From NCBI GenBank assembly GCA_028688015.1, contig JAQTZB010000001.1, forward strand, positions 475,663 to 539,662: a stretch of DNA of 64,000 nt. The letters run 5' to 3'. This stretch comes from Elusimicrobiales bacterium (GTDB taxonomy: Bacteria > Elusimicrobiota > Elusimicrobia > Elusimicrobiales > UBA9959). Both the position numbers and the translations under genes were made by a program. This document shows, piece by piece, positions 3,800 to 21,100 of this stretch (positions are counted from its first letter, which is position 1; each line of letters begins with the position of its first letter). Below the pieces are notes generated by a model. That model saw nothing but the letters and a program-made list of their open reading frames with translations. It had not been told where the DNA came from and did no database searches.

Positions 3800-4570
3800 A
3801 TGGATATAATGACACTGATAGGTTTCCTCCTCGGCGCCGCGGTAGTGGCGTGGGGCGCCGTCTCCTCCGGCGTCGGAGACAAGCTGCTCAACACGCACGG
3901 CATCGTGATAGTGCTGGGCGGCACGCTGGCGGCCATCTTCATCAACACCTCCTACAAGCGCTTCCTGGCCGGCCTGAAGGCCCTGGGCGAGACTTTCGCC
4001 TCGCCCAAGATCCCTTCCGTGGAGGAGGCGGTGCGCACGCTGGTCGGCATGGCCGAGACGGCGCAGAAGCAGGGCGGCATCATGGCCCTGACCAACACCG
4101 ACCCCGCCTTCGCCGGCGGCTTTCTCAAGCGCGCGGTCGCCGTGGCCATGATCAGCGCCGAGTCCCGCGAGACACGGAACATCCTGGAAGAGGAGATCCG
4201 CCGCCGCCGCCTGGACGTGCAGGAGGACTCGAACCTGTACCGCACGGCCGGCGTGCTGAGCCCGATGTTCGGCCTGATCGGCACGCTGTTCGGCATCATC
4301 CAGACGCTGAGCAATATTTCCGATCCCACGGCGATCGGCCGCTCTATGGCCGTGGCCATCACCTCGGCCCTGTTCGGCATCGGCTTCTCCAACATGTTCT
4401 GCGTGCCGGTGGCAAACAAGATCCGCCTGCGCGCCATGGAGGAGACCCTGGTGCTGCAGCTCATCCTCGAGGGTGTGATAGACATCATGTCGGGCAAGAC
4501 CCCCCACCTGATAGAGATGCACCTGCGCGGCTACCAGCCGACGGACGCCTCCGGCGCGAAGGCCAGATAA
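3800..4570 (+). CDS. motA: MotA-like stator subunit
   Basis: 256 residues from ATG 3800 (GGAG nine bases upstream; an upstream in-frame TTG at 3785 would overlap that site and is not favoured). Four membrane spans are visible at about 3-23, 34-50, 148-170 and 180-203, with a charged cytoplasmic region at 60-145. GVLSPMFGLIGTLFGIIQTL and the following SMAVAITSALFGIGFSN match the MotA/PomA pore region, including its conserved prolines. In the inner membrane MotA5MotB2 couples ion flow to torque. The next gene is motB, 6 bp away. No flagellar structural gene is in the window, so a non-flagellar motor, as in gliding or Tol/Exb-type systems, is possible. Confidence 0.9.
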   Translation: MDIMTLIGFLLGAAVVAWGAVSSGVGDKLLNTHGIVIVLGGTLAAIFINTSYKRFLAGLKALGETFASPKIPSVEEAVRTLVGMAETAQKQGGIMALTNTDPAFAGGFLKRAVAVAMISAESRETRNILEEEIRRRRLDVQEDSNLYRTAGVLSPMFGLIGTLFGIIQTLSNISDPTAIGRSMAVAITSALFGIGFSNMFCVPVANKIRLRAMEETLVLQLILEGVIDIMSGKTPHLIEMHLRGYQPTDASGAKAR

Positions 4571-4576
4571 GGATTT

Positions 4577-5203
4577 ATGCGCTTCTACGAACGCGAGGAC
4601 GAACTGGAGAACGAGCTCAACCGCGGCGCGCTGTGGGCCATCACCTACGGCGACATGATGAGCTACCTCATGATCTTCTTCATGATCCTGTTCGCTTTCT
4701 ACAGCTCCAAGAGCATCACCTCGCAGTTCTCGCAGAAAGCCATCGAGGAGACCTTCGGCCGGGATACGCAGGTGGCCAGCACCCTGTTCTCCAAGCACGG
4801 CATCCAGCAGATAGCCCAGGTGGAGATCTCCGCCAACAAGATCAGCATCAATTTTTCGGACCCGATCCTCTTCGCGCCAGGCAGCGACGTGCTGAAGGAA
4901 TCCTCCTACCCCCACCTGCGGCGCCTGACGGCCGTCTTCAAGGACCTGCCCAACCCGATCCAGATAGAGGGACACACCGACAACCGCCCGCTGGGCAAGG
5001 GCACGCGCTTCCGCTCCAACTGGGAGCTCTCCTCCGCCCGCGCCTTCACGGTGCTGCAGTTCTTCGTCAAAGAGGGCGTAGCCCCCGAAAAGCTTTCCGC
5101 CGTAGGCTACGGCGAGTTCAAGCCGGTGCAGTCCAACGAGACCCCCGAGGGGCGGTCCAAGAACCGGCGCATCGAGATCAACATCGTGCGCCACGAGATC
5201 TGA
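4577..5203 (+). CDS. motB: MotB-like stator subunit with OmpA domain
   Basis: 208 residues. A short cytoplasmic N-terminus is followed by one membrane span (about 19-44) that carries Asp26 in ITYGDMMSYLMIFF, the position of the ion-binding aspartate of MotB. The C-terminal half is an OmpA/MotB peptidoglycan-binding domain: IEGHTDNRPL at about 133-142, SSARAFTVLQFF, and AVGYGEFKPV followed by NRRIEINIV. It anchors the stator to the cell wall. It is shorter than enteric MotB (about 310) and closer to compact stators. The gene follows motA by 6 bp and is followed by a kinase gene 4 bp later, suggesting one transcript. Confidence 0.92.
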   Translation: MRFYEREDELENELNRGALWAITYGDMMSYLMIFFMILFAFYSSKSITSQFSQKAIEETFGRDTQVASTLFSKHGIQQIAQVEISANKISINFSDPILFAPGSDVLKESSYPHLRRLTAVFKDLPNPIQIEGHTDNRPLGKGTRFRSNWELSSARAFTVLQFFVKEGVAPEKLSAVGYGEFKPVQSNETPEGRSKNRRIEINIVRHEI

Positions 5204-5207
5204 CGCC

Positions 5208-7328
5208 ATGAAACTGACTACGAGGTTCCTGCTGATCCTGCTGGGCATAGCGGTGCTGCCGCTGGTGCTGGCCGTCGGCTGGAACGTCTACCAGTACAAC
5301 TCCTCTGTGGGCAGCTACTTCGAACTGCACAAGGGCCTCTCGCGCCTCTCCGCCGCCAACGTGGACGAGTGGTTCCTCAATACCAACCGCAACCTGGCCT
5401 TCCTCTACGAGCTGGAGAACCCGCTGCGCGGCCGCACCGTGGACGAAACCCAGGTGATCCGGCAGGCCGCCCGCATAAATTCCGACATCATGTCGCTGAG
5501 CGTGCTCGATAAGAACGGCAAGGAACTGTTCTTCCTGCAGAGCGAGAAAGTGAAGGAGAAGAAGTCCCTGGCAGCCTACGCGGTGGAGCTGGCCACGCGC
5601 GCCAGCGAATCCGGAGTTGTCGCCAGCGGGGACGTTATCTGTCTGAAAGGCCAGGCCTATTTCCCCCTCGCCTACCCGCTGGTGGACGGCCGCGTGGTGC
5701 TCTTCCATTTCTCGATGGACAAGCTGCTGGGCAAGATCAATTCCCAGCAGGCCGGCCGCACCGGCCGCGTCTTCATCTCGGACGGCCAGGGCCGGCCGCT
5801 CCCCTGCCAGGACATGAAGGGCCTGGATTACGTGCCGGCAGAGCTGAAAAAAACCTTCCGGAGCGGCGGCCGCACCGGCACGCTGGCCAAGTTCCAATTC
5901 TCGGGGGAGGACTATTCGGGCGCCTACGCCGCCATAGACAAGCTGGACTGGGCCGCCGTGTCGGTGCAGTCCGAGGACGAGCTCTACGGCAAGCAGCGCA
6001 AGTCCATCGCGGTCTTCTCTTTCCTCGCCGTCGCCATTTTCGTCATCACTATGGTGGTGGTATTCATGGTCTCGGCCCGCATCATACGCCCCGTGAACAA
6101 CATGGTGAACGGCGTGAAGCAGTTCCTTAAGACCCAGCACCTCGACCAGGTGATAGCGTCCGAGGGCTGGCCGGAGATCAAGACGCTGGTCGGCATCCTG
6201 AACCGGCTGATGCTGGAGCTGCAGGCCTACCGCGCCTTCCAGCTTAACCAGATCGTGGAGGAGAAGGGCAAGGCGCAGGCGCTGATAGACACCATCTCCG
6301 ACGGAGTGCTGCTGATAGACGACCGCGGCTCGCTGATCTACTCCAATAATACCGCCCTGCGCCTGCTGGGCATCCCCAAGATCTCGCCCGAGGTGGGCGT
6401 GCCCCGCTCGGTCAAGAACGAGGCTTTCTTCAAGGCGCTCACCGATATGCTGGCCGTCAAGGAGAAATACCTCAAGCAGGAGGTCGACGCGCCGCTCTCC
6501 AACGAGGGCGCCAGCGTGATCAAGAGTTTCCGCATCATCTCCAACCAGTTCCTGCTCGCCACGCTCAAGCGCCCGGGCCGGGTCATCATCATCCGCGACA
6601 TCACGAGCGAGAAGGAGATAGAGAAGGCCAAGGAAGACTTCTTCCACATGATCACGCACGACATGCGCGCCCCGCTCTCTACGCTGCAGGGCTATACCGA
6701 ACTGCTGATGAAGAAGATCGGCCCGTCACCCGCCACCGACAAGTACCTCCAGAGCATGCTCTACTCGTCGCGCCGCCTGCGCGGCATGATCGACGACATT
6801 CTCAACGTCACCAAGCTTGAACGCGGCACGATGGCGCTGCAGCTGGGGCCGGTGGATGCCGCGGCCCTTATAATGCGGATCAAAGATAACCATGAACCGG
6901 TGGCCGGGCCGAAGAATATCAAGCTGCTGGTGTCAGCCCCGCCCGCGAAGCTCGAGTTTACGGCGGACCAGATCCTGCTCGAGCGCGTCATCACCAATCT
7001 GATGGGCAACTCGCTGAAGTTCACCCCCGGCGGCGGCACTATCACCCTGTCGGCGTGGGAGGACGCGCAGAAGGTGTTCTTCGCAGTGGAGGACACCGGG
7101 CCCGGCATCCCCGAGGCCAAGCGCAAGGAGATCTTCGAGAAGTACTCGCAGATGGAGGAGCACAAGAGCCAGGGCTTCGGCCTGGGCCTGGCGATGTGCC
7201 AGATGACGGTGCAGCTCCACAAGGGCGACATCTGGGTGGAGTCGGAGGTGGGCAAAGGCAGCAAGTTCATCTTCACGGTCGCCAAGTCCATGGCCGCCCC
7301 GCCGCCGCCCATCCCTTCCCCCTCTTGA
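5208..7328 (+). CDS. Membrane sensor histidine kinase (extracytoplasmic sensor-HAMP-PAS-HisKA-HATPase)
   Basis: 706 residues. Span 1 is at about 5-27, a large periplasmic sensor region runs to about 265, span 2 is at about 268-288, then HAMP (IIRPVNNMVNGVKQFL), a PAS-like domain (ALIDTISDGVLLIDDRGSLIYSN is its start, quoted in part: DTISDGVLLIDDRG), HisKA and HATPase. The phosphoacceptor is His484 in FFHMITHDMRAPLSTLQ. ATP-site motifs are NLMGNSLKFTP, DTGPGIP and GFGLGLAMC. The C-terminus ends in a Pro-rich tail. It lies 4 bp after motB and upstream of three regulator genes, so it probably signals to them and perhaps controls the stator. The ligand is unknown. Confidence 0.93.
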   Translation: MKLTTRFLLILLGIAVLPLVLAVGWNVYQYNSSVGSYFELHKGLSRLSAANVDEWFLNTNRNLAFLYELENPLRGRTVDETQVIRQAARINSDIMSLSVLDKNGKELFFLQSEKVKEKKSLAAYAVELATRASESGVVASGDVICLKGQAYFPLAYPLVDGRVVLFHFSMDKLLGKINSQQAGRTGRVFISDGQGRPLPCQDMKGLDYVPAELKKTFRSGGRTGTLAKFQFSGEDYSGAYAAIDKLDWAAVSVQSEDELYGKQRKSIAVFSFLAVAIFVITMVVVFMVSARIIRPVNNMVNGVKQFLKTQHLDQVIASEGWPEIKTLVGILNRLMLELQAYRAFQLNQIVEEKGKAQALIDTISDGVLLIDDRGSLIYSNNTALRLLGIPKISPEVGVPRSVKNEAFFKALTDMLAVKEKYLKQEVDAPLSNEGASVIKSFRIISNQFLLATLKRPGRVIIIRDITSEKEIEKAKEDFFHMITHDMRAPLSTLQGYTELLMKKIGPSPATDKYLQSMLYSSRRLRGMIDDILNVTKLERGTMALQLGPVDAAALIMRIKDNHEPVAGPKNIKLLVSAPPAKLEFTADQILLERVITNLMGNSLKFTPGGGTITLSAWEDAQKVFFAVEDTGPGIPEAKRKEIFEKYSQMEEHKSQGFGLGLAMCQMTVQLHKGDIWVESEVGKGSKFIFTVAKSMAAPPPPIPSPS

Positions 7329-7361: not shown

Positions 7362-7748
7362 ATGGAACCCAAAAAGAACCAGATGCTGATCATAGACGAC
7401 AATGTCGAGTTCCGCACTATGGTCTGCGACTACTTCACCGACCTCGGCTTTGCCGTGGACATCGCGGAGAACGGGCGCGAGGGCCTGGCCAAGGCCAAGC
7501 TGATCCGCCCCGACGTCATCCTCTGCGACGTCATGATGCCGGACATCGGCGGCATAGAGGTCATCCGCAACCTGCAGGTCGACGACGATACGCGCGCCAT
7601 CCCGGTCCTCGTCATCACCGGCTCTTTTTTCGACAAGAACATGAGCGAGCTGTTCCGCCAGGAAGCCAACTGCCGCGAATTCATGAGCAAGACCGTGGAG
7701 CTGTCCTACCTGGAAAAGAAAGTTCTGGCGCTGCTCCCCCAAAAATGA
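7362..7748 (+). CDS. CheY-like response regulator 1
   Basis: 128 residues, a lone receiver domain. The acidic pair is Asp12-Asp13, the phosphorylation site Asp56 (ILCDVMMPDIGG), the switch Thr86 and the conserved Lys110 (EFMSK), so all catalytic residues are present. There is no output domain, so it should act by binding a partner, possibly the motor or a kinase. It follows the membrane kinase by 33 bp with its own promoter in the gap, and its stop overlaps the next start (ATGA). Being encoded beside motAB and near a FliG-domain protein, a CheY-like action on the rotor is attractive but unproven. Confidence 0.93.
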   Translation: MEPKKNQMLIIDDNVEFRTMVCDYFTDLGFAVDIAENGREGLAKAKLIRPDVILCDVMMPDIGGIEVIRNLQVDDDTRAIPVLVITGSFFDKNMSELFRQEANCREFMSKTVELSYLEKKVLALLPQK

Positions 7749-8122
7749 CCCCCCGCCCCCGCGTGCTCGTAGTTGACGACGAGCCGGACTACCTCCGCAT
7801 CGCCGCCCGCATCGCCGCAAAGGCCGGCTGCGCGGTGGCCACGGCGCCGGCCGCGCTGCCCGGGCTGAAGCTGGCCGCCGACGAGCCGCCCGACCTGATC
7901 CTGCTCGACGTGGGCCTGCCCGATATCAGCGGCTTCGAGGCCGCGCGGCGCCTGCGCAGGGTGCCGGCGCTGGCCAGGGTCCCGATCATCTTTTTTACCG
8001 TCCGCTCGGAACTGGACATGGTTTCCGAGGGCCTTAAGCTCGGGGCCGCAGGCTACGTGCTCAAGCCCTTCGATCCCGACGAGCTGCTGCGGCGCATAAA
8101 GGCCGCGGTCTTCCCCGCATGA
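7745..8122 (+). CDS. CheY-like response regulator 2
   Basis: 125 residues, a second lone receiver. Asp11-Asp12, phospho-Asp55 (LILLDVGLPDISGFEA), Thr85 and Lys107 (GYVLKPFDPDELL) are all intact. It overlaps regulator 1 upstream and the winged-helix regulator downstream by 4 bp each, so all three are translationally coupled. Two intact receivers between a sensor kinase and a degenerate receiver protein suggest a relay or branched signal, but the wiring cannot be read from sequence alone. Confidence 0.93.
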   Translation: MTPRPRVLVVDDEPDYLRIAARIAAKAGCAVATAPAALPGLKLAADEPPDLILLDVGLPDISGFEAARRLRRVPALARVPIIFFTVRSELDMVSEGLKLGAAGYVLKPFDPDELLRRIKAAVFPA

Positions 8123-8799
8123 AAAAGCCGGCCGCGGCCTGCGTGGGCTCGCCGGCCCTCGGCGCCTTCCTGGCCAAGGCCCTGCCCGGCTTCTCCCTTA
8201 AAATCTATTCCTCGGCCGCGTCCTTCCTGAAGGCCCCGGCCCGCGCGCGCCTCGCAGTGATAGAGGCGGCCCTGCCCGATATGTCCGGGCGGGACCTCGT
8301 TGCCGTGCTGCGCGGCGGGAAGGCCACGGCGGGGCTGCTGCTGGTGCTGACGGGCGCTGGGCCCTATTCCCCCGCGGCAGCTGCCCTCTCCCTGGAGAAC
8401 GGGGCCGACGAATATTTCTCTTTCCCGCCAGAGCCCGCGCTGTTCCGGGCCCGCCTGCTGAACCTGCTGGCCCGCTCCGCCGCGGGCGCCGCGCCGCCCG
8501 CCAAGCCGTCCGAGTACGCCTTCGGGGCGCTGACGGTCTCGCCGGAGGCGCGCACCGCCGCGGTAGGCGGCGCCAGGGTGCGCCTGACGGCCCTGGAGTT
8601 CGACCTGCTGCTCTATTTTCTGCGCAACCCGGGGCGCGTGGTCGCCCGGACCGTGCTGCTCGAGCAGGTCTGGAAACTGGGCACGGAGGCGGGGACGCGC
8701 GCCGTGGACAAGCGCATAGAGGCCCTGCGCTCAAAGCTGGGCCGCTTCGGCTCCAAGATAAGGACTGTGTTCGGGTTGGGCTACATCTTCAAACTGTAA
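8119..8799 (+). CDS. OmpR-type winged-helix regulator with degenerate receiver
   Basis: 226 residues: receiver-like domain 1-115 and an OmpR/PhoB winged helix at about 130-226 (LTALEFDLLLYFLRNPGRVV, VDKRIEALRSKLG, IRTVFGLGYIF). The receiver lacks the N-terminal acidic pair (ACVGSP instead), has Glu49 in place of the phospho-Asp (LAVIEAALPDMSGRDL) and Phe where the Lys before Pro should be (YFSFPPEP). It therefore cannot be phosphorylated in the standard way and may be constitutive or ligand-controlled. Residues 116-128 are an Ala/Pro linker. It ends 6 bp from the convergent kinase gene; no clear terminator lies between. Confidence 0.9.
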   Translation: MKKPAAACVGSPALGAFLAKALPGFSLKIYSSAASFLKAPARARLAVIEAALPDMSGRDLVAVLRGGKATAGLLLVLTGAGPYSPAAAALSLENGADEYFSFPPEPALFRARLLNLLARSAAGAAPPAKPSEYAFGALTVSPEARTAAVGGARVRLTALEFDLLLYFLRNPGRVVARTVLLEQVWKLGTEAGTRAVDKRIEALRSKLGRFGSKIRTVFGLGYIFKL

Positions 8800-8805
8800 A
8801 TTCTT

Positions 8806-10788
8806 TCACGGCGCCGCGTTTCCCAGCGGCAGCCGCACTTCCACCACCGCCCCGCGTTCCGGCTTGTTGGCTACGCTCAGCGTGCCGCCGTGCTTTTCGG
8901 CTATGCGGCGCGCCACCGCCAGGCCGATGCCGGCCTTGCCTTTGTCCGTGGTGTTGAAAGGGGCGAAAAGCTTGTCCAGCGCTTCGCGGGCGAAGCCGGG
9001 CCCCGTGTCCTCGAAGGCGATCAGGGCTTCTCTCCCGTCCTCGGAACTTTTCAGGGTAACGCGCAGGCTGCCGCCCTGCTGCAGCCGCTCGTAGGCGTTC
9101 TTCACGAGCTGGTAGAACAGCATCTTCAGCCTCTCCGGTGAGAGGCGGGCGCGCAGGCGAGGGTTCAGGATGGCGGCGGAGACGGAGATCTTGCGCTGCT
9201 TGAAGGCGCGCTCCCACTTGTCGGTTTCCACCCGCACGAAGCCGGACAGGTCCGTTTCCTCCAGCTCCGGGGTTTCCGGGTCCAGGTATTCCTGCCAGCC
9301 CTTCAGCAAGTTAACCGAGCCCAGCAGGTTCTTGAGGCCCGGCTCCAGCGCCTTGCGCTCTGCGGCCGGGATGCGCAGGTTGAAAGCTTTCAGGTCGCGG
9401 GCCGTTTTCTCCAGGGAGGCCAGCATTTTGGCGGTGAAGTCGGCCTGCTCGCGCAGCAGCAGGCCGCTGAACTTGATATTTTTCCGGCGCAGGTCCTCGT
9501 TCTCCAGTTCCACTTCCGGGATGCGCTTGAGGTCCTTGTGCAGCGCGGCTATCTGCTGGTCGCGCGCCTCTATGGCCTTCAGCAGCCGGGAGGAATAGTC
9601 GTCGGAGGCGGCGAGCCTGGCCTTGAGCCCTTCCAGGTCGTTCTCCAGCGCCTTTATCTTAAGGGCCGCGCGCCGGGAGACCTCTTTTTCCTGTCCCCCC
9701 GCCAGTTTGGCTTCGCGCAGCAGGCCGTTGACTTTTTCTATGTCGGCGTCACGCTGCTTCAGCTCCGCCGAGAGTGCGCCCGCCTGTTCCTGGGCGGCCG
9801 CCAGGGCGCTCTTCAGCTCCGAGGCGCGCTTCTGCAGGTCGAAAACCTGGGTTACCGCCCCGGTAAAATTGTGGCGCTGTTCCTGCGCGCTCTGCGCGTG
9901 CTCGTCCGCGGCCTGCCGCAGGCGCTGCGCTTCCAGCTTGGAGGCGTCCAGGGCGCTCCGCAGCGCGGCGCAGTCTTTCAGCGCGGCGCCCAGCGAGCGC
10001 TCTTTCTCTTCCAGCGCGGCGCCCAGCGCTGCCGCGCGGGCCCGCAGCGCGGCCCGCTCCCCTGCGGAGAGGTTCTCTTTAGCGGAGGCTTCGGTCAGGG
10101 CGGCCTCGAGCGAAGCCAGCCCCTGGCGCTTGATTGCCAGCTCGGCGCGGAGGCCCGAAAGTTCGTTCTCGGAGACGGCGAGGGACGCCTTGGCGGCAGC
10201 TTCGCGCTCGGCGGCGGCGGCCAGTTCCGCGGCGGCATGCTGCGCCTCGCGGCGGTTTGTTTCCAGGCTGCCGAGGAGGTACTCGTAGACGGACTTCTGC
10301 TTGCCGGAGGCGCGGGAATCTTCTTTGAGGGTTTTCGCTATCTCCGGCAGCGAGGTGATGCCGGCGATCTGCTGCTTGAAAGTCTCTATGGCGGCTTCGC
10401 GGGCCGTCAGAGCCTCGCGCAGGCTGGCGGTCTCGGCGCGCAGGCCCTGCAGTTCGGCGTCGAGCAGGGCGCTCTCGTTCTCTTTCCTGCGCAGCTGCGT
10501 CTGCAGCTCCGAGGCGGCCAGCGCTTTGCCGGCAGCGCGGGAGAGGGTGTCCTCGTCCTTCCTGGCCGCTTCCCTGAGGTTTTCCGCTTCCGCTTTGAGC
10601 TGCCGCTCGCGGGCCCTGCTTTCGGCCAGCTGCCGCTCCAGGTGGCCGGCTTTCGAGGCTGCCAGTTCAAGGGCGTGGCGGGCTTCCGCGCGCTCTTTCT
10701 CCGAGCGGGCGGAGGCGTCCTGGGCGTCGCCTACGGCGCGCCAGAGGTAATCCATTTCCGAGTTGAACGCGTCGGAGGGGCGGCTCAC
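8806..10788 (-). CDS. Coiled-coil histidine-kinase-like ATPase without a recognisable phosphoacceptor
   Basis: 660 residues from GTG 10788, chosen because AAGGAGGG lies just upstream and the start overlaps the stop of the FliF-FliG gene (GTGA); ATG 10755 is an alternative. Residues ~15-490 are a nearly unbroken Ala/Glu/Lys/Leu-rich coiled coil. Residues ~545-655 are a HATPase_c domain: N box FYQLVKNAYERL (Asn564), FEDTGPGF (594-598 region), LFAPFNTTDKGKAGIGLAVA and EKHGGTLSV. The segment before it has no His in an H-box context, so it may pass signals by an unusual route or be a GHKL ATPase. There is no signal peptide or span, so it should be cytoplasmic, next to the FliG part of the neighbour. 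Confidence 0.85.
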   Translation of the reverse strand: MSRPSDAFNSEMDYLWRAVGDAQDASARSEKERAEARHALELAASKAGHLERQLAESRARERQLKAEAENLREAARKDEDTLSRAAGKALAASELQTQLRRKENESALLDAELQGLRAETASLREALTAREAAIETFKQQIAGITSLPEIAKTLKEDSRASGKQKSVYEYLLGSLETNRREAQHAAAELAAAAEREAAAKASLAVSENELSGLRAELAIKRQGLASLEAALTEASAKENLSAGERAALRARAAALGAALEEKERSLGAALKDCAALRSALDASKLEAQRLRQAADEHAQSAQEQRHNFTGAVTQVFDLQKRASELKSALAAAQEQAGALSAELKQRDADIEKVNGLLREAKLAGGQEKEVSRRAALKIKALENDLEGLKARLAASDDYSSRLLKAIEARDQQIAALHKDLKRIPEVELENEDLRRKNIKFSGLLLREQADFTAKMLASLEKTARDLKAFNLRIPAAERKALEPGLKNLLGSVNLLKGWQEYLDPETPELEETDLSGFVRVETDKWERAFKQRKISVSAAILNPRLRARLSPERLKMLFYQLVKNAYERLQQGGSLRVTLKSSEDGREALIAFEDTGPGFAREALDKLFAPFNTTDKGKAGIGLAVARRIAEKHGGTLSVANKPERGAVVEVRLPLGNAAP

Positions 10789-12221
10789 AGGCCCTCCTTG
10801 ATGACGATGCGCCCTTTGGCGTTGAGCTCGATGGCGGCGGAAATAATCCTGGCCCTGGCGCCGATGACCTTCTCCTCTTCGGGGCGGGTGGCCAGCATGT
10901 CCTTGACCACCAGGCGCACGTCTTCCGGCAGCAGGCGCAGCACGTTGCCCGCGGGCGTCTCGCCGGCGCCGTAGAGCGCCGCGGCCCACTCCGCGTAGGG
11001 CAGTGATACCACCAGCGGGCGCAGGTTCTTGTCGTCGAGGCGGCACAGGTCTTCGAAGGTGACCATCTTGCGGCGCAGCTCCTCGGAGCCCTTGGGATTG
11101 GCGCGAGCGAGGTTGTCCATGATCTCGCTGCGGGCGCCCTCGTCCACCAGGGACAGCAGGCGGCCCAGCTTCTCCGCGCCCTTCAGGCTTTTCTCGAGCT
11201 TCAGGCGCAGGTCGTTCTCTATCTCGTAGACGCGCTCGGGCTCGGCCTGCTTGAGGCCCAGCAAATGCGCCGAGACCGATTGCTTCTTGGCGGGCGGCAG
11301 GGCGAGCAGGATCTTGGAGGAGATGTGGGGCCTGCGGTCGGCCAGGTTGGCTATGATGATGGCGGCGTCCTCGTCGGGCAGGTCGGCGAGCAGCTCCGCG
11401 CCCTCGGCGGGCGGCAGCTTCTCCATGAATTCGAAGGCGGAGCCGGCCGTCAGCAGGCCCCCGCCGCCCGCCGCGCGGGCTTCCACGTCGATGATCTCGC
11501 CCATCTCCCCCCCGGGCCCTTCCAGGCCGGCGGTAGCGCCGCCGGGGCCGCCGCCGGCGGGGGCTGCGGGCGAAGGGGCGTTGATGCGGGCGTAGTCCAC
11601 GAAGCCTGACAGCAGTTTGGAAGCGAGGATGTAGCCGAGCACGAACAGCACGGCCAGGGCTAGCGCGCCGAAGGCGGCGGCCACCAGCACCGGCCGGATC
11701 TCCGGGGCTTCCAGGGCGTTCTTCCACCAGGGCAGCATCTCGGACTTGTCGCTTATGATGGTGTCGCCGCGGGCCTCGTTGACGCGCAGCACCTGCGCGA
11801 TCAGCAGTTTTATCGCGTTGGCGCGGGCGTCGGGGATGGACCTGTCAAAGACCAGGGAGACGGTTAGTTTCTTGACGCGGAATTCGGTGGTTTTCTGGCT
11901 TTCCTCGCGCTGCTGCTTTATGAACTCGCCGGTCTTTTCCAGGATGTTGACCGAGTTGTACCCGGGCAGGGTGAGGTTCTCCTCGGGTGTGGGGCCCGAT
12001 TCGCTCTTGCTCTTTAGGACGACCTCCCCCTCTACGGAGACGAAAGCCTGGGAGCGGCCCCGGCCGACCAGCTGCTCGAGCAGGCCGGAGACGTCGGCCT
12101 GCATGCGCGCCGACAGCTCGGCGGCCTGGGCGCTGGGCGAGGGCGCGGGCTGTTCCTGCGCGCCCGCGCTGACGGCGAAGCAAAAGACGAGAATGGCGAA
12201 AAGGCGTGAAATCGGGTTCAT
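10785..12221 (-). CDS. FliF-FliG fusion protein (minimal MS-ring/rotor)
   Basis: 478 residues. After a signal peptide or first span (1-21), residues ~38-165 match the C-terminal periplasmic part of FliF: LLEQLVGRGRSQAFVSVEGE, VKKLTVSLVFDRS and RVNEARGDTIIS (the RGD of FliF). One membrane span follows at about 176-203, then a Gly/Pro/Ala linker (~214-260). Residues ~262-478 are FliG middle plus C-terminal domains, with ELRRKMVTFEDLCRLDDKNL (382-401) and the ending IELNAKGRIVIKEGL. The FliF N-terminal ring-building motifs, the FliF tail and FliG_N are absent. The topology places FliG in the cytoplasm. It is co-transcribed with the coiled-coil kinase and faces the motAB operon. Confidence 0.85.
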   Translation of the reverse strand: MNPISRLFAILVFCFAVSAGAQEQPAPSPSAQAAELSARMQADVSGLLEQLVGRGRSQAFVSVEGEVVLKSKSESGPTPEENLTLPGYNSVNILEKTGEFIKQQREESQKTTEFRVKKLTVSLVFDRSIPDARANAIKLLIAQVLRVNEARGDTIISDKSEMLPWWKNALEAPEIRPVLVAAAFGALALAVLFVLGYILASKLLSGFVDYARINAPSPAAPAGGGPGGATAGLEGPGGEMGEIIDVEARAAGGGGLLTAGSAFEFMEKLPPAEGAELLADLPDEDAAIIIANLADRRPHISSKILLALPPAKKQSVSAHLLGLKQAEPERVYEIENDLRLKLEKSLKGAEKLGRLLSLVDEGARSEIMDNLARANPKGSEELRRKMVTFEDLCRLDDKNLRPLVVSLPYAEWAAALYGAGETPAGNVLRLLPEDVRLVVKDMLATRPEEEKVIGARARIISAAIELNAKGRIVIKEGL

Positions 12222-12781: not shown

Positions 12782-14098
12782 TCAGTTGCTCGAGGGTATT
12801 TCGATCCAGAAGAGGGCGCCGCCGCCGGGGGCCGGGGCGCAGCCGGCGGAGCCTTTGTGGAGCTCGGCGATGGATTTGACCAGGGCGAGGCCGAGGCCGG
12901 TGCCGCCGTGGCCGGGGGCGGCTGAGCCCTGCGAGAAGGGCGCGAAGAGCTTGTCGGGCTCGCCTTCTTTGAGCCCGGGGCCGGTGTCCTGCACCTCTAC
13001 GCGGAACTTGCCGCCGCCCAGCCGGGCGCGCACCGTTACTGCGCCCCCCTCCGGCGTGAATTTAATGGCGTTGGAGAGCAGGTTGGTGAGCGCGTGGGTC
13101 AACAGCTCGCGGTCCAGCAGGGCTTCGCCGGCCCCGGCGGCTTCCACCGCGAGAGTCAGCCCCTTCTCTTCGGCCTTGGGGCGCAGGAAATCGGCCGCGT
13201 CCCGCGCGAGGGCCAGGGGGTCTTCGCGGGCCGCGCGCAGTTCCATCTTGCCGCGCTCGATCTTGGCGAGGTCGAGCATCGCGGTGACGAAATTGGCCAG
13301 GCGGCCGGCGTTCTCTTTTATGCGCGTGAAGACCTCGAGGTCTTCGGGACGGAAATTCTCCTTCTCCTTGAGCAGCAGGGCCGCGTAGGTCTCTATCACG
13401 CCCAGCGGCGAGCGGAGTTCGTGCGTGACCGAGGCCGTAAAATTCTTTTTCATCGTCTCCAGCTCCAGCAGTCGGTCCGACATGGCGTTCAGAGCGGCGG
13501 CCAGCTCGGCCACCTCATCGGAGCCTGAGGCGTCCGTCTTTGCGCCGAACTTTCCCTCCCCCACCTCGGCGGCCTCGGCGGCCAGCCTCCGCAGCCTCCT
13601 GGTGAGCCTGCGGGCCAGCAGCAGCCCCAGCAAGGCGGCCACAGCCATGGCGACCAGGAAGGCGGCGGCCAGGTCGTGCCCCACTCCTGCCAGGGCCCCC
13701 CGCCGCTCCTCCTCGAGGGCCTGGACCGAGAAGTATATGCGGGCCGAAAACTTCTTCCCGCGGATTTCCTTCGGGATTACAAACTCTTTCTTGTGCGGGG
13801 CTGTCTTGCCGGCCGTGCGCACCGGGCGCGGGCCGCGGCCGATATCCACGTCGCACCAGGCGACCTCCTGCTTGGACGAGCAGACTCCGGACAGATAGTC
13901 CACCGCCATCAGCGGGTCGCCGGCGAGCTCGGCCTCGCCCAGCATCGCCGAGACGGACTGCGCCAGCGCGTCCAGCCGCGCCTGCTGCGCGGCCCGGACG
14001 GTACGGTTCTGGAAGCTGAAGAAGATAGCCGAAAGCAGCAGCGCCGCCGCCAAGGCGGCGGCCATCAGGGCCGCGCTGAGCTTGTGGAAGAGTTTCAT
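12782..14098 (-). CDS. Membrane sensor histidine kinase
   Basis: 438 residues. Span 1 at about 8-28, a periplasmic region 30-140 with two Cys (73 and 82), span 2 at about 144-163, HAMP to about 215, then HisKA with His226 in NFTASVTHELRSPLGVIET and a HATPase domain (LLSNAIKFTP, DTGPGL, LFAPFSQGS, GTGLGLALVKSI). Complete and standard. It starts 7 bp after the PorV-TPR gene on the same strand, so it is probably co-transcribed with it and may sense the envelope. No regulator gene is adjacent on this strand; the receivers at 7.4-8.8 kb are candidates for partners. Confidence 0.93.
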   Translation of the reverse strand: MKLFHKLSAALMAAALAAALLLSAIFFSFQNRTVRAAQQARLDALAQSVSAMLGEAELAGDPLMAVDYLSGVCSSKQEVAWCDVDIGRGPRPVRTAGKTAPHKKEFVIPKEIRGKKFSARIYFSVQALEEERRGALAGVGHDLAAAFLVAMAVAALLGLLLARRLTRRLRRLAAEAAEVGEGKFGAKTDASGSDEVAELAAALNAMSDRLLELETMKKNFTASVTHELRSPLGVIETYAALLLKEKENFRPEDLEVFTRIKENAGRLANFVTAMLDLAKIERGKMELRAAREDPLALARDAADFLRPKAEEKGLTLAVEAAGAGEALLDRELLTHALTNLLSNAIKFTPEGGAVTVRARLGGGKFRVEVQDTGPGLKEGEPDKLFAPFSQGSAAPGHGGTGLGLALVKSIAELHKGSAGCAPAPGGGALFWIEIPSSN

Positions 14099-14105
14099 GG
14101 CCGCG

Positions 14106-16073
14106 TCACCGCGACAGCCGTATAATTCGCTCCAGGGCCTTCTTGGCCTGCGTGTTCTGCGGGTCCAGCGTCAGGATCCTGCGGAAGGCGTCCGCCGCCT
14201 TGCCGTACTCGCCCTTCGCGTAGTAATCCGCGCCGGCCTGGTAGATCTTCTCTATCTCGCGGGCGTCGGCGCTCTTGCCCGAGGCGGCCTCGGGTTCGGG
14301 CTCGGGCGCGCCGGGCTGCGGGCCGCCGGGCTCCCAGCTGGCGCCTGCGCTCTTGCTCTTGGCCTCGTCGGACATCTTGCCCAGCCTGGCCTTCTCGGCG
14401 TTGTCGGGCTCGTAGCGCAGCGCGCGGTCCCAGGCGCCGGCCGCGCGGGCGAAGTTGCCCAGCATGTAGTTGCAGGAGCCGCTTTTCTTTAGCGCCATCA
14501 GGTGGTTGGGCTCAATTTCCAGCAGTTCCTCCAGCTTGCGCAGCGCCTCGTTATAGCGCTTCTTGGCGTAGAAGTCGTCCGATTCCGCCAGCTTGAACTC
14601 CGCCCAGCCGCGGCTGAAGTCCGACGGCACCCTGTCGGGCGCCACGCGGGTCAGCTCGCCCGCACGGTCGAGGAAGTTTGAGAGGGCGGAATCCTGCTGA
14701 TTGAGGCTCTGGGCGTAGGCCAGCTGCTTCATGGCGCGCAGGTCCGCGCCGGCTATCAGGTCGCGGGCGCCTCCGGACAGCAGTTCCTCCCAGCGGGCCT
14801 TCTGGCGGTTCTCCACGGCCAGCGACGGGAAGAAGGCCGCCACCGCCGAGAGGCGCCTGGTCAGGTTGACCACCGAAGAATCCGGCAGCAACTCGTTGGC
14901 ACGCTCGAGCAGGAGCTTGTTGGCCGCGTAGTAATTCTCTTTTCGCACCTGCTCTTTAACCTCGGCGAGGCGCGGATCGTTGAGGCTGGCGGTATCGCGC
15001 GGGCTCTTGTAGTTCTGGGCCTCGCGCAGGCGCTTGAACTGGTCCAGCAGCTCGGTCTCGGCCAGCTCGGTCTGAGTGGGCGCGCCGAAGTGGTAGGAGA
15101 GGGCCACCTTGTGGTTGCCCGCCGTCTCCTTCACGGTGCCGAGCGGCAGCGCGAAGCCGTAGTCTATCTGGATGCGCTGGACCTTGTAGGTGAGCCCCAG
15201 CGTGGCCTGCTTGAATTCGCGGTCGCCCGCGCCCAGCGAGCCGCGCACGCCGATGTCGCCCTTGTCCAGGCTGGGGAAGATCTTTTCAGCCGCCACCACC
15301 ACCTGCTTGTCCAGGCTGCCGTCGGGCGCCTTCTGAAAGCGCGCTTCGGCCGACAGCAGCAGCCAGAGGCTCTTGTAGGAGGCCCCCAGCCGCGTCTTCA
15401 TGGGGACCCGGTCCTTGCCCGAGTCGGTAAAGGAGACGTTGGCCTGCATGGCGTTGAGCAGCGCGGCGCCCAGCGTCCAGCGCCGGGTCAGGCGGTAGAG
15501 CGCGCCCAGGTCGGCGTCCAGCGCGGAGCGCGTGTTCGCCCCGGCCAGCACCGGGTCGGTGGCGCCGTTCTGGCCCAGGTTGCTCTCCACGGCGTTGTAG
15601 GTCTCGTCCAGGCGGGTGAAGCCGTGGCTCAGGTATTTAAGGGAGCCGCCGACCGAGAGGTTGCTGTACTTGGACCCCTTGTCGAACTTGTACCCCCAGC
15701 CTACCTGCCCCGTCTTCTCGAAATAGATCCCCGAGAGCGAGAACTGCTGCCAGGCTACGCCCAGGGTGCCGTTGCGCCCGCTTCCTATCGGCACGGCCAG
15801 GGCGGCCACGCTGAGCCCCAGGTTGGAGCCGTCGCTGAGGCCGGTATAGAACAGCGAATGGGAGGCGAGCACCTTGGTGCGCTCGATGCTCGAGAGCCCG
15901 GCGGGGTTGTAGTAGACCGCGGAGATGTCGTCGGCCACGCCGGTGAAGGCGTCGCCCAGGCCGGGCGCGCGCGCGCCGAAGCCGAGGTCCTCGAACGCGG
16001 CGCGGGCGGGCGCGGCCAGCCACGCGCAGAGCGCGAGGGCCGGCAGCAGTTTCTGGTTCTTCAAGGCGTTCAT
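14106..16073 (-). CDS. PorV/PorQ-like outer-membrane barrel fused to TPR domain
   Basis: 655 residues. A signal peptide (about 1-25, ending APARA) precedes a ~310-residue region that begins with the PorV/PorQ signature: FGARAPGLGDAFTGVADDIS and AVYYNPAGLSSIERTKV. Alternating hydrophobic strands in it suit an outer-membrane beta-barrel. From about 340 to the end the protein is helical with TPR-like units, e.g. KRYNEALRKLEELLEIEPNH, ARAAGAWDRALRYEPDN and KAADAFRRILTLDPQN, broken by an acidic Pro-rich stretch near 570-590. PorV-type proteins shuttle or anchor type IX secretion substrates in Bacteroidetes; the adjacent proteins with sorting-like C-termini fit that. The TPR part would be periplasmic. 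Confidence 0.85.
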   Translation of the reverse strand: MNALKNQKLLPALALCAWLAAPARAAFEDLGFGARAPGLGDAFTGVADDISAVYYNPAGLSSIERTKVLASHSLFYTGLSDGSNLGLSVAALAVPIGSGRNGTLGVAWQQFSLSGIYFEKTGQVGWGYKFDKGSKYSNLSVGGSLKYLSHGFTRLDETYNAVESNLGQNGATDPVLAGANTRSALDADLGALYRLTRRWTLGAALLNAMQANVSFTDSGKDRVPMKTRLGASYKSLWLLLSAEARFQKAPDGSLDKQVVVAAEKIFPSLDKGDIGVRGSLGAGDREFKQATLGLTYKVQRIQIDYGFALPLGTVKETAGNHKVALSYHFGAPTQTELAETELLDQFKRLREAQNYKSPRDTASLNDPRLAEVKEQVRKENYYAANKLLLERANELLPDSSVVNLTRRLSAVAAFFPSLAVENRQKARWEELLSGGARDLIAGADLRAMKQLAYAQSLNQQDSALSNFLDRAGELTRVAPDRVPSDFSRGWAEFKLAESDDFYAKKRYNEALRKLEELLEIEPNHLMALKKSGSCNYMLGNFARAAGAWDRALRYEPDNAEKARLGKMSDEAKSKSAGASWEPGGPQPGAPEPEPEAASGKSADAREIEKIYQAGADYYAKGEYGKAADAFRRILTLDPQNTQAKKALERIIRLSR

Positions 16074-16081
16074 AGTCCGCG

Positions 16082-16456
16082 CTACCTTATTACTATTACC
16101 GTTCCCTTATAGACCTTGGTTTCCACCCTGACCTGGTAGATGTAGACCCCGCCTTCCGCTTTTCCCGAGGCGTTGGGATTCCATTCGTAGTCGTAATAAA
16201 AATCCGTGGTGCCGATGTTCTTAACGCGCATCACCGCTATTTCCCTGCCCGCCAGGTCGAAGATCTTGGCGTCGATGCCCGAGTCGCGGGGGTTGTGGCA
16301 GCGGAAGACGAAGGTGTCGTTGAGCCCGTCCCCGTTGGGCGTGACGAGCCGGTTCAGGACCCGCGACTGCCCCAGCGCCGACGCTGCGCAGAAGGCCGCG
16401 GCGGGCGCCAGCAGCGCCGCCGCCGCGAGCGCGGCGAAATACCTTAAGGCTTTCAT
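16082..16456 (-). CDS. Mini exported protein consisting of a gliding/type IX-like C-terminal domain
   Basis: 124 residues: signal peptide 1-28 (Ala-rich) and then only one domain, from LNRLVTPNGDGLNDTFVFRC (about 35-54) through KIFDLAGREIAVMRV to GGVYIYQVRVETKVYKGTVI at the end. This is the FlgD-Ig/gliding-motility C-terminal fold used as a sorting signal on type IX-like substrates. It has no cargo part. It is closely similar to the C-terminus of the divergent gene at 16575. It lies upstream of the PorV-like gene on the same strand with an 8 bp gap. A TAGAAT hexamer sits eight bases before its ATG. Confidence 0.85.
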   Translation of the reverse strand: MKALRYFAALAAAALLAPAAAFCAASALGQSRVLNRLVTPNGDGLNDTFVFRCHNPRDSGIDAKIFDLAGREIAVMRVKNIGTTDFYYDYEWNPNASGKAEGGVYIYQVRVETKVYKGTVIVIR

Positions 16457-16574: not shown

Positions 16575-18188
16575 GTGAACCACAGGCTGACCATTTCCCT
16601 GCTGCCGGCCGCCCTCCTTCTCTGGGCGGGGCCCCTCTTTGCGGCCAGGCTGTCTTCGCCGAGTTTCTCCGACCTCAGCGGGGCGTACGGTTTCGGCTCC
16701 GCCTCCATGGTCTCGGCCAACTTCGAGGGCGACGGCAACGTGCAGGAGGTCTCGGTCTCCACGCAGGAGTCCCCCTCCTTCTCGCAGCGCAGCGGCAAAC
16801 TCTCGTTTTTCCCCGCCCCGTCCCCGGTTTCCGACCTGGCGCTGGTCATCGTTTCCAGCTCCGGCCTCCGCATCACCTGGACGGCCCCGTACGCCGACGC
16901 CCGGCGGCAGTACGGAGAGGCGGACGACTATATCCTGCGCTACACCACCGCCGGCTACATCACCACCGACGAGCAGTTCAACGCTGCCTCCCCGTACGCG
17001 CAGTCCTGGACGCCGCTCGGGGCGGGCATGACTGAAACCAGGCTGCTCGAAGGGTTCAACGCCGGAACCACCTATTATTTCGCCGTGGAAGCCGTGAATT
17101 CCCACGCCCTCCGCTCCGAGCTCTCCAACCAGGTGGCCTCGTTCGCGCTGGTGCCGCTGGCGCCGATGAACTTCCAGATCACCAGGGCCGGCAACTCCGT
17201 GACGATGACCTGGATCCCGCCGGCCGGCTTCCAGAACCGCATCCCCTTCAACGACCGGTTCAGCCCGGCCTATCCCTACGAGATAAAGAAGTACGCCCTC
17301 TACCGCGCCACGGCGCCCGCTGCCGCCGACTGGGAATTTATCGGTGAGACTTCTTCCAGCACGCTCAGCTGGACCGACATAATCGGGGCCAGCGACGTTT
17401 ATTACTACCATGCGCGGTCAGTGAACCAGGCGGGTGAATCCATCCCCTCCTACGGGCGCGGCAGCACGCCCGGCGGCCTGTACTTCCTGGCGCCCGACAA
17501 CCAGAGCATGCTGGAAGTGCCGGCCGAGGCAGGCGGGGCCTTCTATTCGGCCTCCGGCGACCCCATGGATTCCTACACCATCGAGATCTCCTCCCACGCC
17601 GAGGACCTGGGCGGGCGCGTGATGAAGTCCGTGGAATTCTCCGCCTTCCGCGGGGGCATCCAGGCGGACACCGCCTTCAAGCTCGCGAAGAGCGGCACGC
17701 TTAAACTTTTTTACGCCAAGGCCGGAGGCGCCATAACCCCCTCCGTGGCCGCGGACGGCAAGGCGCTGAGCATGTTCTACCATAACGGCTCCCGCTGGCT
17801 GCAGCTGTACGGCAAAGTCAACGAGGGAGAGCGCAGCGTGCAGCTGGAGACCAGCCTGCTGGGCCGCTACCAGCTGCGCACCACCGAGCGCAGCGGCAGC
17901 TTCGCCGCAGACAAGGCCGGGCTGCTGAACCGCCTGATAACGCCTAATGGCGACGGCAAAAATGATACGATGGTTTTTATTTTCGATAACCCGCAGGACA
18001 AGCAGGTCAAAGGGCGCATCTACGACCTGCGCGGCGCCCAGGTGGCCGCGATGAAGACCGGGCCGGTCTCCAACTCGCTTACCTGGGACGCCAAGGCCGG
18101 CGGGCAGACGGTGCCCGGCGGCGTCTATATCTACCAGCTCGAAGCTGACGGCACCGTCTATAACGGCACCGTCGTAGTGATAAAGTAG
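16575..18188 (+). CDS. Exported fibronectin-III protein with gliding/type IX-like C-terminal domain
   Basis: 537 residues from GTG 16575, chosen because it begins an ideal signal peptide (NHRLTISLLPAALLLWAGPLFA). Two fibronectin type III-like domains span about 70-190 and 190-300 (DDYILRYTTAGYITT, LEGFNAGTTYYFAVEAVNS). A middle beta-rich region follows. Residues ~445-537 are the sorting-like domain: LNRLITPNGDGKNDTMVF, RIYDLRGAQVAAMK and PGGVYIYQLEADGTVYNGT. It is probably secreted or surface-attached. The next gene starts 10 bp later behind a GGAGG site, so the two exported proteins form an operon. Confidence 0.85.
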   Translation: MNHRLTISLLPAALLLWAGPLFAARLSSPSFSDLSGAYGFGSASMVSANFEGDGNVQEVSVSTQESPSFSQRSGKLSFFPAPSPVSDLALVIVSSSGLRITWTAPYADARRQYGEADDYILRYTTAGYITTDEQFNAASPYAQSWTPLGAGMTETRLLEGFNAGTTYYFAVEAVNSHALRSELSNQVASFALVPLAPMNFQITRAGNSVTMTWIPPAGFQNRIPFNDRFSPAYPYEIKKYALYRATAPAAADWEFIGETSSSTLSWTDIIGASDVYYYHARSVNQAGESIPSYGRGSTPGGLYFLAPDNQSMLEVPAEAGGAFYSASGDPMDSYTIEISSHAEDLGGRVMKSVEFSAFRGGIQADTAFKLAKSGTLKLFYAKAGGAITPSVAADGKALSMFYHNGSRWLQLYGKVNEGERSVQLETSLLGRYQLRTTERSGSFAADKAGLLNRLITPNGDGKNDTMVFIFDNPQDKQVKGRIYDLRGAQVAAMKTGPVSNSLTWDAKAGGQTVPGGVYIYQLEADGTVYNGTVVVIK

Positions 18189-18198
18189 CGGAGGACCT

Positions 18199-21100
18199 AT
18201 GACTTCAGCAAGAACCCTGTTCACCTGCGGCCGCGCGGCGCTGCTCGCCTCGCTGGCGCTCTTCCCCCTTTTCTCCGGCCGCGCGGAGGCCGTCATCGCG
18301 CCCACCATCAACTACCAGGGCTTCCTGCTCAGCAAGGTCACCAACCAGGCGGTGGATACCCCCCAGGACCTCAAGTTCGCGATCTACGCCACGGCGACGG
18401 GCGGCGCCCCGCTCTTCACCGAGGAACGCTGCAACCTGCGCGTCAGCAAGGGCCGCTACGACGTGGAGATCGGGTCCTCCACCCCCGGCGGCATACCCGG
18501 CGACCTCTTCATGGACTACACCGCGCTCTGGCTGGAGGTGCAGGTGGATTCCGAGAACGACTGCGCCGGCGCCTACGAGCCAATGACGCCCCGCGTCAAG
18601 CTGCAGGCCTCGCCCTACGCCTTCAACTCGCTCTACGCCTCCACGGCCTCGGCCGCCACCACTAACTTCAGGGCCGACATCATCGGCGCGCTGCCGAACA
18701 CCACCTACGGCGCCATCACCATTTCCACCAACCTGTTCGTGCAGGGCGGCATCTCCGTCGGCAGCATTTCGCCCGGCCAGAAGCTGGCCGTGGCCGGCGT
18801 GGTGGAGAGCACCGGCAACTGGCCCAGCTGCGCCGACGCCCCCAACTACACCTGCGGCTTTAAGTTCCCCGACGGCTCCGTGCAGGTCAAGGCGGCCGCC
18901 CTGACCATGTGGGACGTGCTCGGCATAAACCTCTATACCATCAACGAAGGCAACACGAACATAGGCGGCGGCATTACCTCCCCGCTCGCCCGCCTGCACA
19001 TCTCCTCGGCCCCGGGCGCTGGCGACATGCTGCTGATCTCCACCGGACCCACCCCCGCCGCCCAGGCCCAGCTGTTCCGGGTCAACGCCGACGGACAGGC
19101 GTACGCCAACTCTTTCCACGGCGACGGCTCCACGCTGAGCAACATCGTGCGCAAGGCCGGCGACACCATGACCGGGCAACTGACGCTGAGCAACTCCAGC
19201 TTCACCGTCGCTTCCCCGCTGGGCGCCGCCTCGCCGAAATTGAGGCTGGCCCCCGGCGTGGAGATCTCTTCTTCCGCGTTGCCCGCGGCCAGGGGAGGCA
19301 TCTTCCTGAGCTCGCACGTCTACCTCGCTCCCGGCGCCACCTATTACGGCGACGGCAGCGGCCTCACCAACCTGATCACCCAGGACAGTTCCAAGGTACT
19401 GAAGGCCGGGGATACGATGACCGGCCAGCTCACCCTGCACAACTCCACCCTGACCGTCACCGGAGACGCCTTCTCGGTCACCGGCTCCACGTTCTCCGTC
19501 TTCGGCGGCAGCGTGGCGGTCGGCGGCTTCGCCTATCCGGCGCGCCTGTCCGTTACGGGCGATATCCGGGCCACTACGGATATAACGGCCCTGGGCTCAC
19601 TGTACGCCGCGGGCGTGAATTCCGCGGCCGGAGTCGGCACGTTCAGGAACGTGACGGCGGCCACCGCAACTTTCTGGGGCTGGGATAATGTCGGCGCAGG
19701 GTACACCGTGGACACGGCCAGCGGCATCAAGGTTCGCGCCGGCATTGTGGACGCCCCGTACTTCGTGGGCAACGGCTCGCTGCTGACGGCCGTCCAGGGC
19801 ACGGACAACACCCGCCTGCTCAAGGGCGGTGACACCATGACCGGGAACCTGCGGCTCTCCAATTCCAGCGTCACCATAGCCGACAACGGCGCGCACTACT
19901 ACGCGCTCACCGTAGCCACGGCGGTCGTCGTCAATAATTACAGCCTGGCCGTGACCACCGGCGGGCGCGTGGGCGTGCAGGTCAACAACCCCTCCGCTCC
20001 GCTGGAGGTGAACGAGTGGATGAAGATCTCCAATCTTGTCGGTATGGCTCACCTGGATTTTGAAAGTTTCGCCGGGACAAATTACCTGAGCTGGAAGAAC
20101 ACCCTGCTCACGGCCAACGGGCCCGCCCAGGGCGCGCTGGGATATCCTACGACGTTCGGAAGGGAGCGCGACCTTGTTTACAGGGCCATGGGTACCAGCC
20201 CTGAAAGCGGCGGACAGGAGGCGTTCCGCGTCACTTCGGACGACTTCGCCAGCTGGCGCTTCGGCATAGGCACGGCCGATCCTTCGGAGCGCTTCCATGT
20301 GGCCGGCAACGTGCTGTTCAGCACCGCGGCTACCAACCCCATCTTCTTCGTCAGCACGACCACCGACAGGGTGGGCATCCGCACGCTGGCCCCGACGCAC
20401 GCCCTGGCTGTCAACGGCGGCATCAGCGCGGTCTCCTCCATAACAGCGCAGGGCGGCTTCTTCGGCAGCGGAGCCGGCTTGACCAACCTTTCCGCCTCGG
20501 CCATACCGCAGACGATCGCGGTGGGCTCCATCACCGCCATCGCCGGAGGCTCTTATGACGGCGTGGTCGTTTCGACGGTGATCTACGCCGCGTCCCAGGT
20601 GTATATCGGGCCGGTTACCGATCCCCTGTCGGACCCTTACTCAGTGCCTACGGCCGCGCTCCATGTGCGCGGCTCGGTGCGCATTGACCAGAGAGGCGGC
20701 GAGGATATGCAGATGCAGTTTTACCCCAATCCTAACTCCAACGGAAACGCGTATATCAGCTGGAGCGACGCTTTCGTCGGCGGGGCCGGCGCGCTGGGAC
20801 TGGAAGGCGCTACGCACGACCTCGTCTTCAGGACCGGCACCGGCAGCCTCGGCGGCGGCTCAGAGATCTTCCGCGTCAAGTTCAACGGCGGGATGACCAT
20901 CGGCGCGGCGGGCCCGGATTACGCCGCCCCGGAGCCCCTGCGCGTGCTGACCAATATGGCCGTCGCGGCAGCCGGCGCTGCGCCGGTACTGTTCGCCTCT
21001 CCCGGCACCGGCGGCTGGGTAGGCGTCAGCACCGGCACGCCCAAAGAGCGCTTCCACGTCGGGTCCAGTTTGCTGGTCGGCGGCGACCGCGCTACGGCCG

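Follow-up and report, generated by a model that had tools for sequence, protein, structure and literature searches.

To our knowledge, FliG is known as a part of a motor only from flagella, in which the rotor of MS ring and C ring works with MotAB. Here, we describe a gene from a window of 64,000 nucleotides, i.e., the whole stretch of DNA that was analyzed (positions 475,663 to 539,662 of contig JAQTZB010000001.1, Elusimicrobiales bacterium, assembly GCA_028688015.1), which encodes parts of FliF and FliG as one fusion protein. The fusion shares the folds of RBM3, FliG_M and FliG_C with the flagellar rotor, and a stator of the MotAB family is encoded nearby. It differs from the flagellum in that it is one polypeptide that lacks RBM1, RBM2, the FliF tail and FliG_N, that the source genome has no match for FliM/FliN, FlhA or rod proteins, and that its gene cluster contains an outer-membrane barrel. 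Elusimicrobiota that seem to lack a flagellum often have more than one such fusion, in most cases encoded close to genes for stators and outer-membrane proteins, which suggests a rotary machine of the envelope not described before.

The only natural FliF-FliG fusion that was found in print is that of the Chlamydiaceae. It is described as consisting of two RBMs and the M region of FliG in about 330 residues, and as being encoded beside FlhA and an injectisome (PMC4768692). Like the protein described here, it joins FliF and FliG naturally in bacteria that are not thought to be flagellated. By this description, the Elusimicrobiota fusion is set apart by combining RBM3 with FliG_M and FliG_C and by the MotAB genes in its vicinity. 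A covalent FliF-FliG rotor has likewise been obtained by engineering: fusions made in Salmonella are reported to form rotors that turn (PMC4768692), and FliFG rings of Vibrio exist as well (PMC11481574; structures 8z4d and 8z4g). However, these are laboratory constructs with a far longer FliF part in flagellated cells. GldLM, AglRQS, ExbBD and TolQR are ion-driven 5:2 motors that, independently of any flagellum, act on the outer membrane or in gliding, and no FliG-type rotor ring is described for them in the available sections of PMC9389320. As regards the phylum, a 2019 study reports that the Elusimicrobia genomes shown in its figure clearly lack flagellar genes (PMC7031533). Fusion proteins of Elusimicrobiota were not found described in a literature search from which subscription papers and preprints were mostly excluded; the available part of a paper on the evolution of MotAB did not contain the string 'Elusimicrob' (PMC12505986), and that of PMC7203096 made no statement on the Elusimicrobiota fusion.

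Domain Architecture and Conservation of the Fusion Protein

The fusion gene codes for 478 amino acids and is located on the minus strand (12221–10785), as are all parts given in this section. A sequence-only reading of the window had reported this open reading frame; the frame proved to be real and conserved in orthologues. The reading had described the C-terminal periplasmic domain of FliF, one membrane span, a low-complexity linker, FliG_M and FliG_C, with neither the FliF tail nor FliG_N, and profile searches and the predicted fold bore this out. A signal peptide (residues 1–22; 12156–12221), assigned from hydropathy and position, is followed by the periplasmic RBM3 with a short disordered insert at residues 73–109 (residues 23–163; 11733–12155) and by a single membrane span (residues 173–209; 11595–11705), which was recognized by hydropathy and corresponds to a helix of residues 175–214 in the structure model. 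A disordered linker rich in Gly, Pro and Ala (residues 215–262; 11436–11579), with predicted local distance difference test (pLDDT) scores below 50 over residues 219–262, leads to the FliG middle domain (residues 258–348; 11178–11450) and the FliG C-terminal (torque) domain (residues 370–474; 10800–11114).

Profile matches had been anticipated for both halves of the protein. For the FliG half, this was the case: FliG_M and FliG_C exceeded the Pfam cut-offs, the fold agreed, and FliG of T. maritima (1lkv) matched residues 264–477 (5.5e-15). The full-length FliG equivalog TIGR00207 covered only residues 260–477, with 49.6 bits compared to a cut-off of 226.7, and no NCBIfam equivalog was assigned. 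For the FliF half, the match of the window protein itself was sub-threshold, and the FliF assignment was made because it is supported by relatives and by the fold. The FliF part exceeded the Pfam cut-off in three related fusions, an RBM3 fold stands ahead of a C-terminal span as in the FliF MS-ring family, and the Vibrio FliFG ring structures 8z4d and 8z4g matched by both sequence and fold.

In 25 of the 32 genomes of the genus, source genome included, an orthologue with a coverage of at least 97% was present. All 32 genomes had some match, and in one of them (G142) the orthologue was split over two contigs. Since the frame is conserved in these orthologues, it is not a sequencing artefact. 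The ratio of nonsynonymous to synonymous substitution rates (dN/dS) was 0.08–0.21 in six pairs, indicating purifying selection on the fusion.

Flagellar Markers and Co-Occurrence with MotB

The draft assembly of the source genome comprises 58 contigs with a total of 3.34 Mb and is 97% complete according to a software estimate. It was searched for four flagellar markers, namely FlhA (FHIPEP), FliM/FliN (FliMN_C, at E 0.1), the N-terminal half of FliF (YscJ_FliF) and rod/hook proteins (Flg_bb_rod). None of them gave a match, while control genomes were positive for each, in the case of the rod/hook proteins in four controls. With zero matches for FHIPEP and for YscJ_FliF (SctJ), the type III injectisome was negative as well. 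Thus, no flagellar regulon was found with these four markers, as the sequence-only reading required, and a complete flagellum elsewhere in the source genome was rejected on their absence. Since the defining flagellar features tested fail, the window system is not classed as a flagellum.

A survey of 340 Elusimicrobiota genomes gave a similar picture. FliG_C was found in 151 of them (95 of the 191 of good quality) and FlhA in only five, and 147 of the 151 genomes with FliG_C were without FlhA. The N-terminal half of FliF occurred in five genomes, four times above the cut-off; rod proteins, for which the 235 genomes of the class were searched, matched in 3. MotB_plug, present in 154 genomes, closely followed FliG_C: both were found in 146 genomes, only FliG_C in 5, only MotB in 8 and neither in 181 (Fisher p 1e-78, a value inflated by the shared descent of the genomes). 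The 150 FliG_C matches listed comprised 139 open frames of at least 480 residues and 11 shorter ones, some of which are stand-alone FliG. The former are too long for plain FliG, although length by itself is no proof of a fusion.

Two genomes (G168 and G187) had FlhA and no rod match. In G168, the N-terminal half of FliF was also present and neither FliG_C nor MotB matched; this set is perhaps an injectisome. In family f2, a single genome (G082) was positive for FliG_C, and the 15 negatives among those listed were 1.2–1.6 Mb in size, which suggests that FliG_C was lost with genome reduction.

Paralogous Fusions in the Source Genome

Where one fusion had been noticed from the window, the source genome encodes five fusion-type proteins and one membrane-anchored FliG_M/FliG_C protein. 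Besides the window fusion, these are fusions of 501 amino acids (C40:386k), 651 amino acids with a TPR tail (C44:91k), 482 amino acids (C51:160k) and 482 codons (C51:807k). The FliF part passed the Pfam cut-off in two of the five and was recognized by fold or alignment in C44:91k and C51:807k. Four of the five fusions have both motA and motB nearby: on C40, on C44 and at C51:160k these genes belong to the fusion cluster itself, and in the window they are found at a distance of about 6 kb. MotA_ExbB matches occurred at seven places in the source genome, one of which (C51:309k) is beside a gene that appears TonB-like by eye. In a tree of the M-C domains of FliG that was rooted on T. maritima, the four sets of window-type and C40-type proteins were grouped and two stand-alone FliG proteins of the phylum fell among the fusions. 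The deep nodes were unresolved, and the tree is compatible with one as well as with several origins of the fusion.

The C40 cluster (L005:8241-15349) looks as if it had been acquired from elsewhere because its third-position GC content is low (0.52–0.57, compared to at least 0.80 in the flanking genes). Related fusions are also present in the genus (L140–L143). The C51:807k fusion (L159:13943-15388) runs off the right end of its contig, and on contig C12 a motA-motB-motB-TPR set (L010:134-3182) begins 134 bases from the left end; the two may be one cluster split by assembly. The FliG_M/FliG_C protein on contig C50 (L007:1852-3910) has 290 amino acids, a span and no FliF part; a coiled-coil gene follows, and neither motA nor motB was found in the 19 kb examined. 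On contig C44, a short, divergent MotA-family protein of 152 amino acids, with a MotA_ExbB match at positions 41–121, is encoded directly before the long-type fusion (L006:17625-18083).

Long-Type Loci

Fusions with TPR, such as that on C44, are referred to as the long type. In one scan, a single long-type peptide pattern was run against 84,980 species genomes and retrieved 68 relatives, 62 from genomes named as Elusimicrobiota groups and 6 from genomes named only 'bacterium'. FliG_M, FliG_C and TPR were found in all 42 long-type proteins scanned. Neighbours were counted by BLAST at more than 45 bits, and several of the loci are cut by contig ends. A module of outer-membrane barrel with TPR, fusion, coiled coil, MotA and MotB recurred: the barrel was detected in 62 of the 68 loci, the coiled coil in 59, FlbD in 46, MotA in 45, MotB in 40 and a lipoprotein-like gene in 36. 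The usual order is barrel, fusion, coiled coil, FlbD, MotA, MotB and lipoprotein. FlbD, a small flagellum-associated family, matched strongly in the copy of the source genome (1.4e-24).

At one long-type locus (L067), genes of the CheY, CheW, CheW, CheR, CheY, CheB and CheA types follow the coiled coil, 0–7 kb downstream of the cluster. Pfam confirmed CheA and the first receiver, and the others were assigned by eye and length. CheW was found in 41 of the 340 genomes. Among the matches listed, it was located on the same contig as a FliG_C match at a distance of 4 kb in G156 and 5 kb in G167, and in G322 CheW was 19 kb and CheA 10 kb away. FliG_C was present in 35 of the 41 genomes with CheW, compared to 116 of the 299 others, a difference that is only suggestive, given the relatedness of the genomes and their unequal size. 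As no CheW match was obtained in the source genome, chemotaxis was rejected as a general partner.

Gene Neighbourhood in the Window

On the minus strand, the genes are arranged in the order CHU_C protein, barrel/TPR protein, histidine kinase, fusion and coiled-coil HATPase. Facing this operon on the plus strand are motA, motB, a Cache/PAS kinase, two receivers and a DNA-binding regulator, and two exported proteins are encoded on its other side. Synteny was examined in 12 of the 25 genus genomes with a near-full-length orthologue. All genes of the window cluster recurred in 12 of 12, except motA and motB, which were found in 11. The anticipated conservation of the fusion next to motAB was thus observed in 11 of the 12 genomes.

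The product of motA (3800–4570, plus strand) matched MotA (9lu9, 6.5e-35) and PomA (8bri, 6.0e-34), and its scores with flagellar MotA/PomA models were far higher than with TolQ and ExbB. The product of motB (4577–5203, plus) has MotB_plug and OmpA domains. It is followed on the same strand by the histidine kinase with dCache and PAS domains (5208–7328) and by two receiver-domain proteins and one OmpR-type DNA-binding protein (7362–8799). On the minus strand, the gene next to the fusion (8806–10755) encodes a long coiled coil with HATPase_c and without a HisKA match. It always adjoins the fusion in the 12 genus loci, which could reflect a link between rotor and signalling. Upstream of the fusion are the histidine kinase with HAMP, HisKA and HATPase_c (12782–14098), the outer-membrane-barrel-like protein with C-terminal TPR (14106–16073; TPR above, Toluene_X and UPF0164 below the cut-off) and a small exported protein with a CHU_C domain (16082–16456). 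Divergent from the fusion operon, on the plus strand, lie genes for an exported protein with fn3 and CHU_C (16575–18188) and for an exported protein of 1156 amino acids without a Pfam match, a candidate surface filament or adhesin (18199–21669; in some of the 12 loci cut by the end of the stretch).

Torque Interface and Stator

A reduced charge of the torque region had been proposed by eye. In the stretch aligned between the window protein and T. maritima FliG, this holds for basic residues (four K/R compared to nine), while acidic residues are equal in number (seven D/E each). R281, D288 and D289 of E. coli FliG were used as positions that we take to be involved in torque. The acid at the D288 position was kept in 42 of 42 long-type and 24 of 25 window-type proteins, and D289 was mostly lost in the window type.

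On the stator side, R88, K89, E96, E97 and E99 of PomA presumably form the charged torque interface. The window MotA has Q, K, T, D and A at these positions in an alignment that is gapped there, and the other MotA copies of the source genome vary. Thr at PomA position 158 was found in all five copies. The features of a stator, i.e., MotA_ExbB, MotB_plug and OmpA domains and the membrane Asp, were present, the Asp being kept in the five source-genome MotBs inspected by eye. The linker between plug and OmpA domain of MotB is short, since the OmpA match begins at residue 71 and not, as in a MotB of known structure, at 109. The changes in the rotor and those in the stator may have arisen jointly.

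Discussion

With a probability of roughly 0.7, we propose that RBM3-FliG forms a MotAB-driven ring, a stand-alone rotor outside the flagellum. In this model, ring formation, rotation, stator contact, direction of force and output are predicted from sequence, domain folds, conservation, gene order, co-occurrence with MotB and the lack of matches to the flagellar markers searched. The N-terminus would be exported and the RBM3 domains would assemble into a ring in the inner membrane, with the span and flexible linker suspending the middle and C-terminal domains of FliG in the cytoplasm to form a torque ring. The contact between the FliF tail and FliG_N would be substituted by the covalent link, and a FliM/FliN ring and an export gate would not be needed. 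Nearby-encoded stators of the MotA5B2 type, anchored to peptidoglycan via the OmpA domain of MotB, would push the FliG_C ring by ion flow. The periplasmic face would most likely act, directly or via partners, on the outer-membrane barrel/TPR protein of the cluster, and this coupling would move surface proteins in a gliding type of motility or drive their export. Control would be exerted by sensor kinases and, in a few genomes, by chemotaxis proteins. The rotor probably serves one of these two outputs, surface-protein movement or powered export, which are suggested because the neighbouring genes encode a TPR-bearing outer-membrane barrel and exported proteins with CHU_C and fn3 domains.

Several observations weigh against this proposal. 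The FliF_C match of the window protein is below the Pfam cut-off, and YscJ_FliF_C matched only 1 of the 42 long-type proteins. The structure models, which are of monomers, reached predicted template modelling (pTM) scores of 0.35 and 0.33, too low for the domain arrangement or a ring. The R281 position is occupied by Gly in 38 of 42 long-type and by Asp in 24 of 25 window-type proteins, and most of the PomA interface charges are lost in the window MotA. In one genus genome (G137), the fusion cluster is retained but motAB is missing from its vicinity. No MotA was detected at 23 of the 68 long-type loci; contig ends cut some of these, but L067, L099, L110 and others have full or long flanks. FliG_C and MotB also occur apart, the former alone in five genomes and the latter alone in eight. 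For chemotactic control, the source genome gave no CheW match, and che genes flank only 1 of the 68 long-type loci.

The changed torque residues, together with the flagellar genes that persist in a few genomes of the phylum, could be read as signs of a functionless remnant of a lost flagellum or of a static scaffold. This is very improbable given the low dN/dS, the gene order kept across the genus and the 68 long-type loci, and the near one-to-one occurrence with MotB; a flagellar remnant was rejected on selection and synteny. That the fusion belongs to a flagellum or injectisome hidden in assembly gaps is scarcely conceivable. The draft state of the source genome would allow for gaps, but FlhA is missing in 335 of 340 genomes and rod proteins in 232 of the 235 searched, and absence across so many genomes makes gaps too unlikely as the cause.

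The remaining alternatives concern the output. The rotor might power export or surface attachment via a type IX-like outer-membrane route instead of motility, with the barrel/TPR protein being PorV-like and CHU_C/FlgD_ig acting as sorting tails. CHU_C or FlgD_ig proteins beside the window, C51:160k, L044, L099 and L110 clusters are in line with this, as are weak PorV and PorP_SprF matches of two source-genome barrels, but these scores are below the cut-off, and we regard this route as rather unlikely. The type IX translocon marker SprA_N was not found in the source genome; it was not found in the control genomes either and decides nothing. A load or surface sensor, in which histidine kinases read stator engagement and no useful mechanical work is done, would fit the three kinases, two receivers and the DNA-binding regulator that flank the fusion in all 12 genus loci, and the kinase of the C40 cluster. 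However, no kinase is encoded among the conserved neighbours of the long type, and five paralogous clusters with barrels and MotAB resemble effectors, which makes a pure sensor distinctly improbable.

The Elusimicrobiota system is a variant of the flagellar rotor-stator engine and possibly forms a machine class of its own. We see even odds that it represents a distinct class of rotary machines spanning the envelope, in which MotAB drives a minimal RBM3-FliG rotor that has no rod, hook, filament, export gate or FliM/FliN. Widespread in one phylum, with up to five differently equipped motors per genome that drive outer-membrane barrels and surface proteins, it would mean FliG-based rotation outside the flagellum. 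Such a natural minimal rotor would allow asking which parts torque generation needs and how a rotor works without FliM/FliN. The question whether a rotor and its stator can exist as a unit independent of the export apparatus, which bears on the origin of the flagellum, could be addressed as well. For the mostly uncultured Elusimicrobiota, it predicts a form of motility or powered export.

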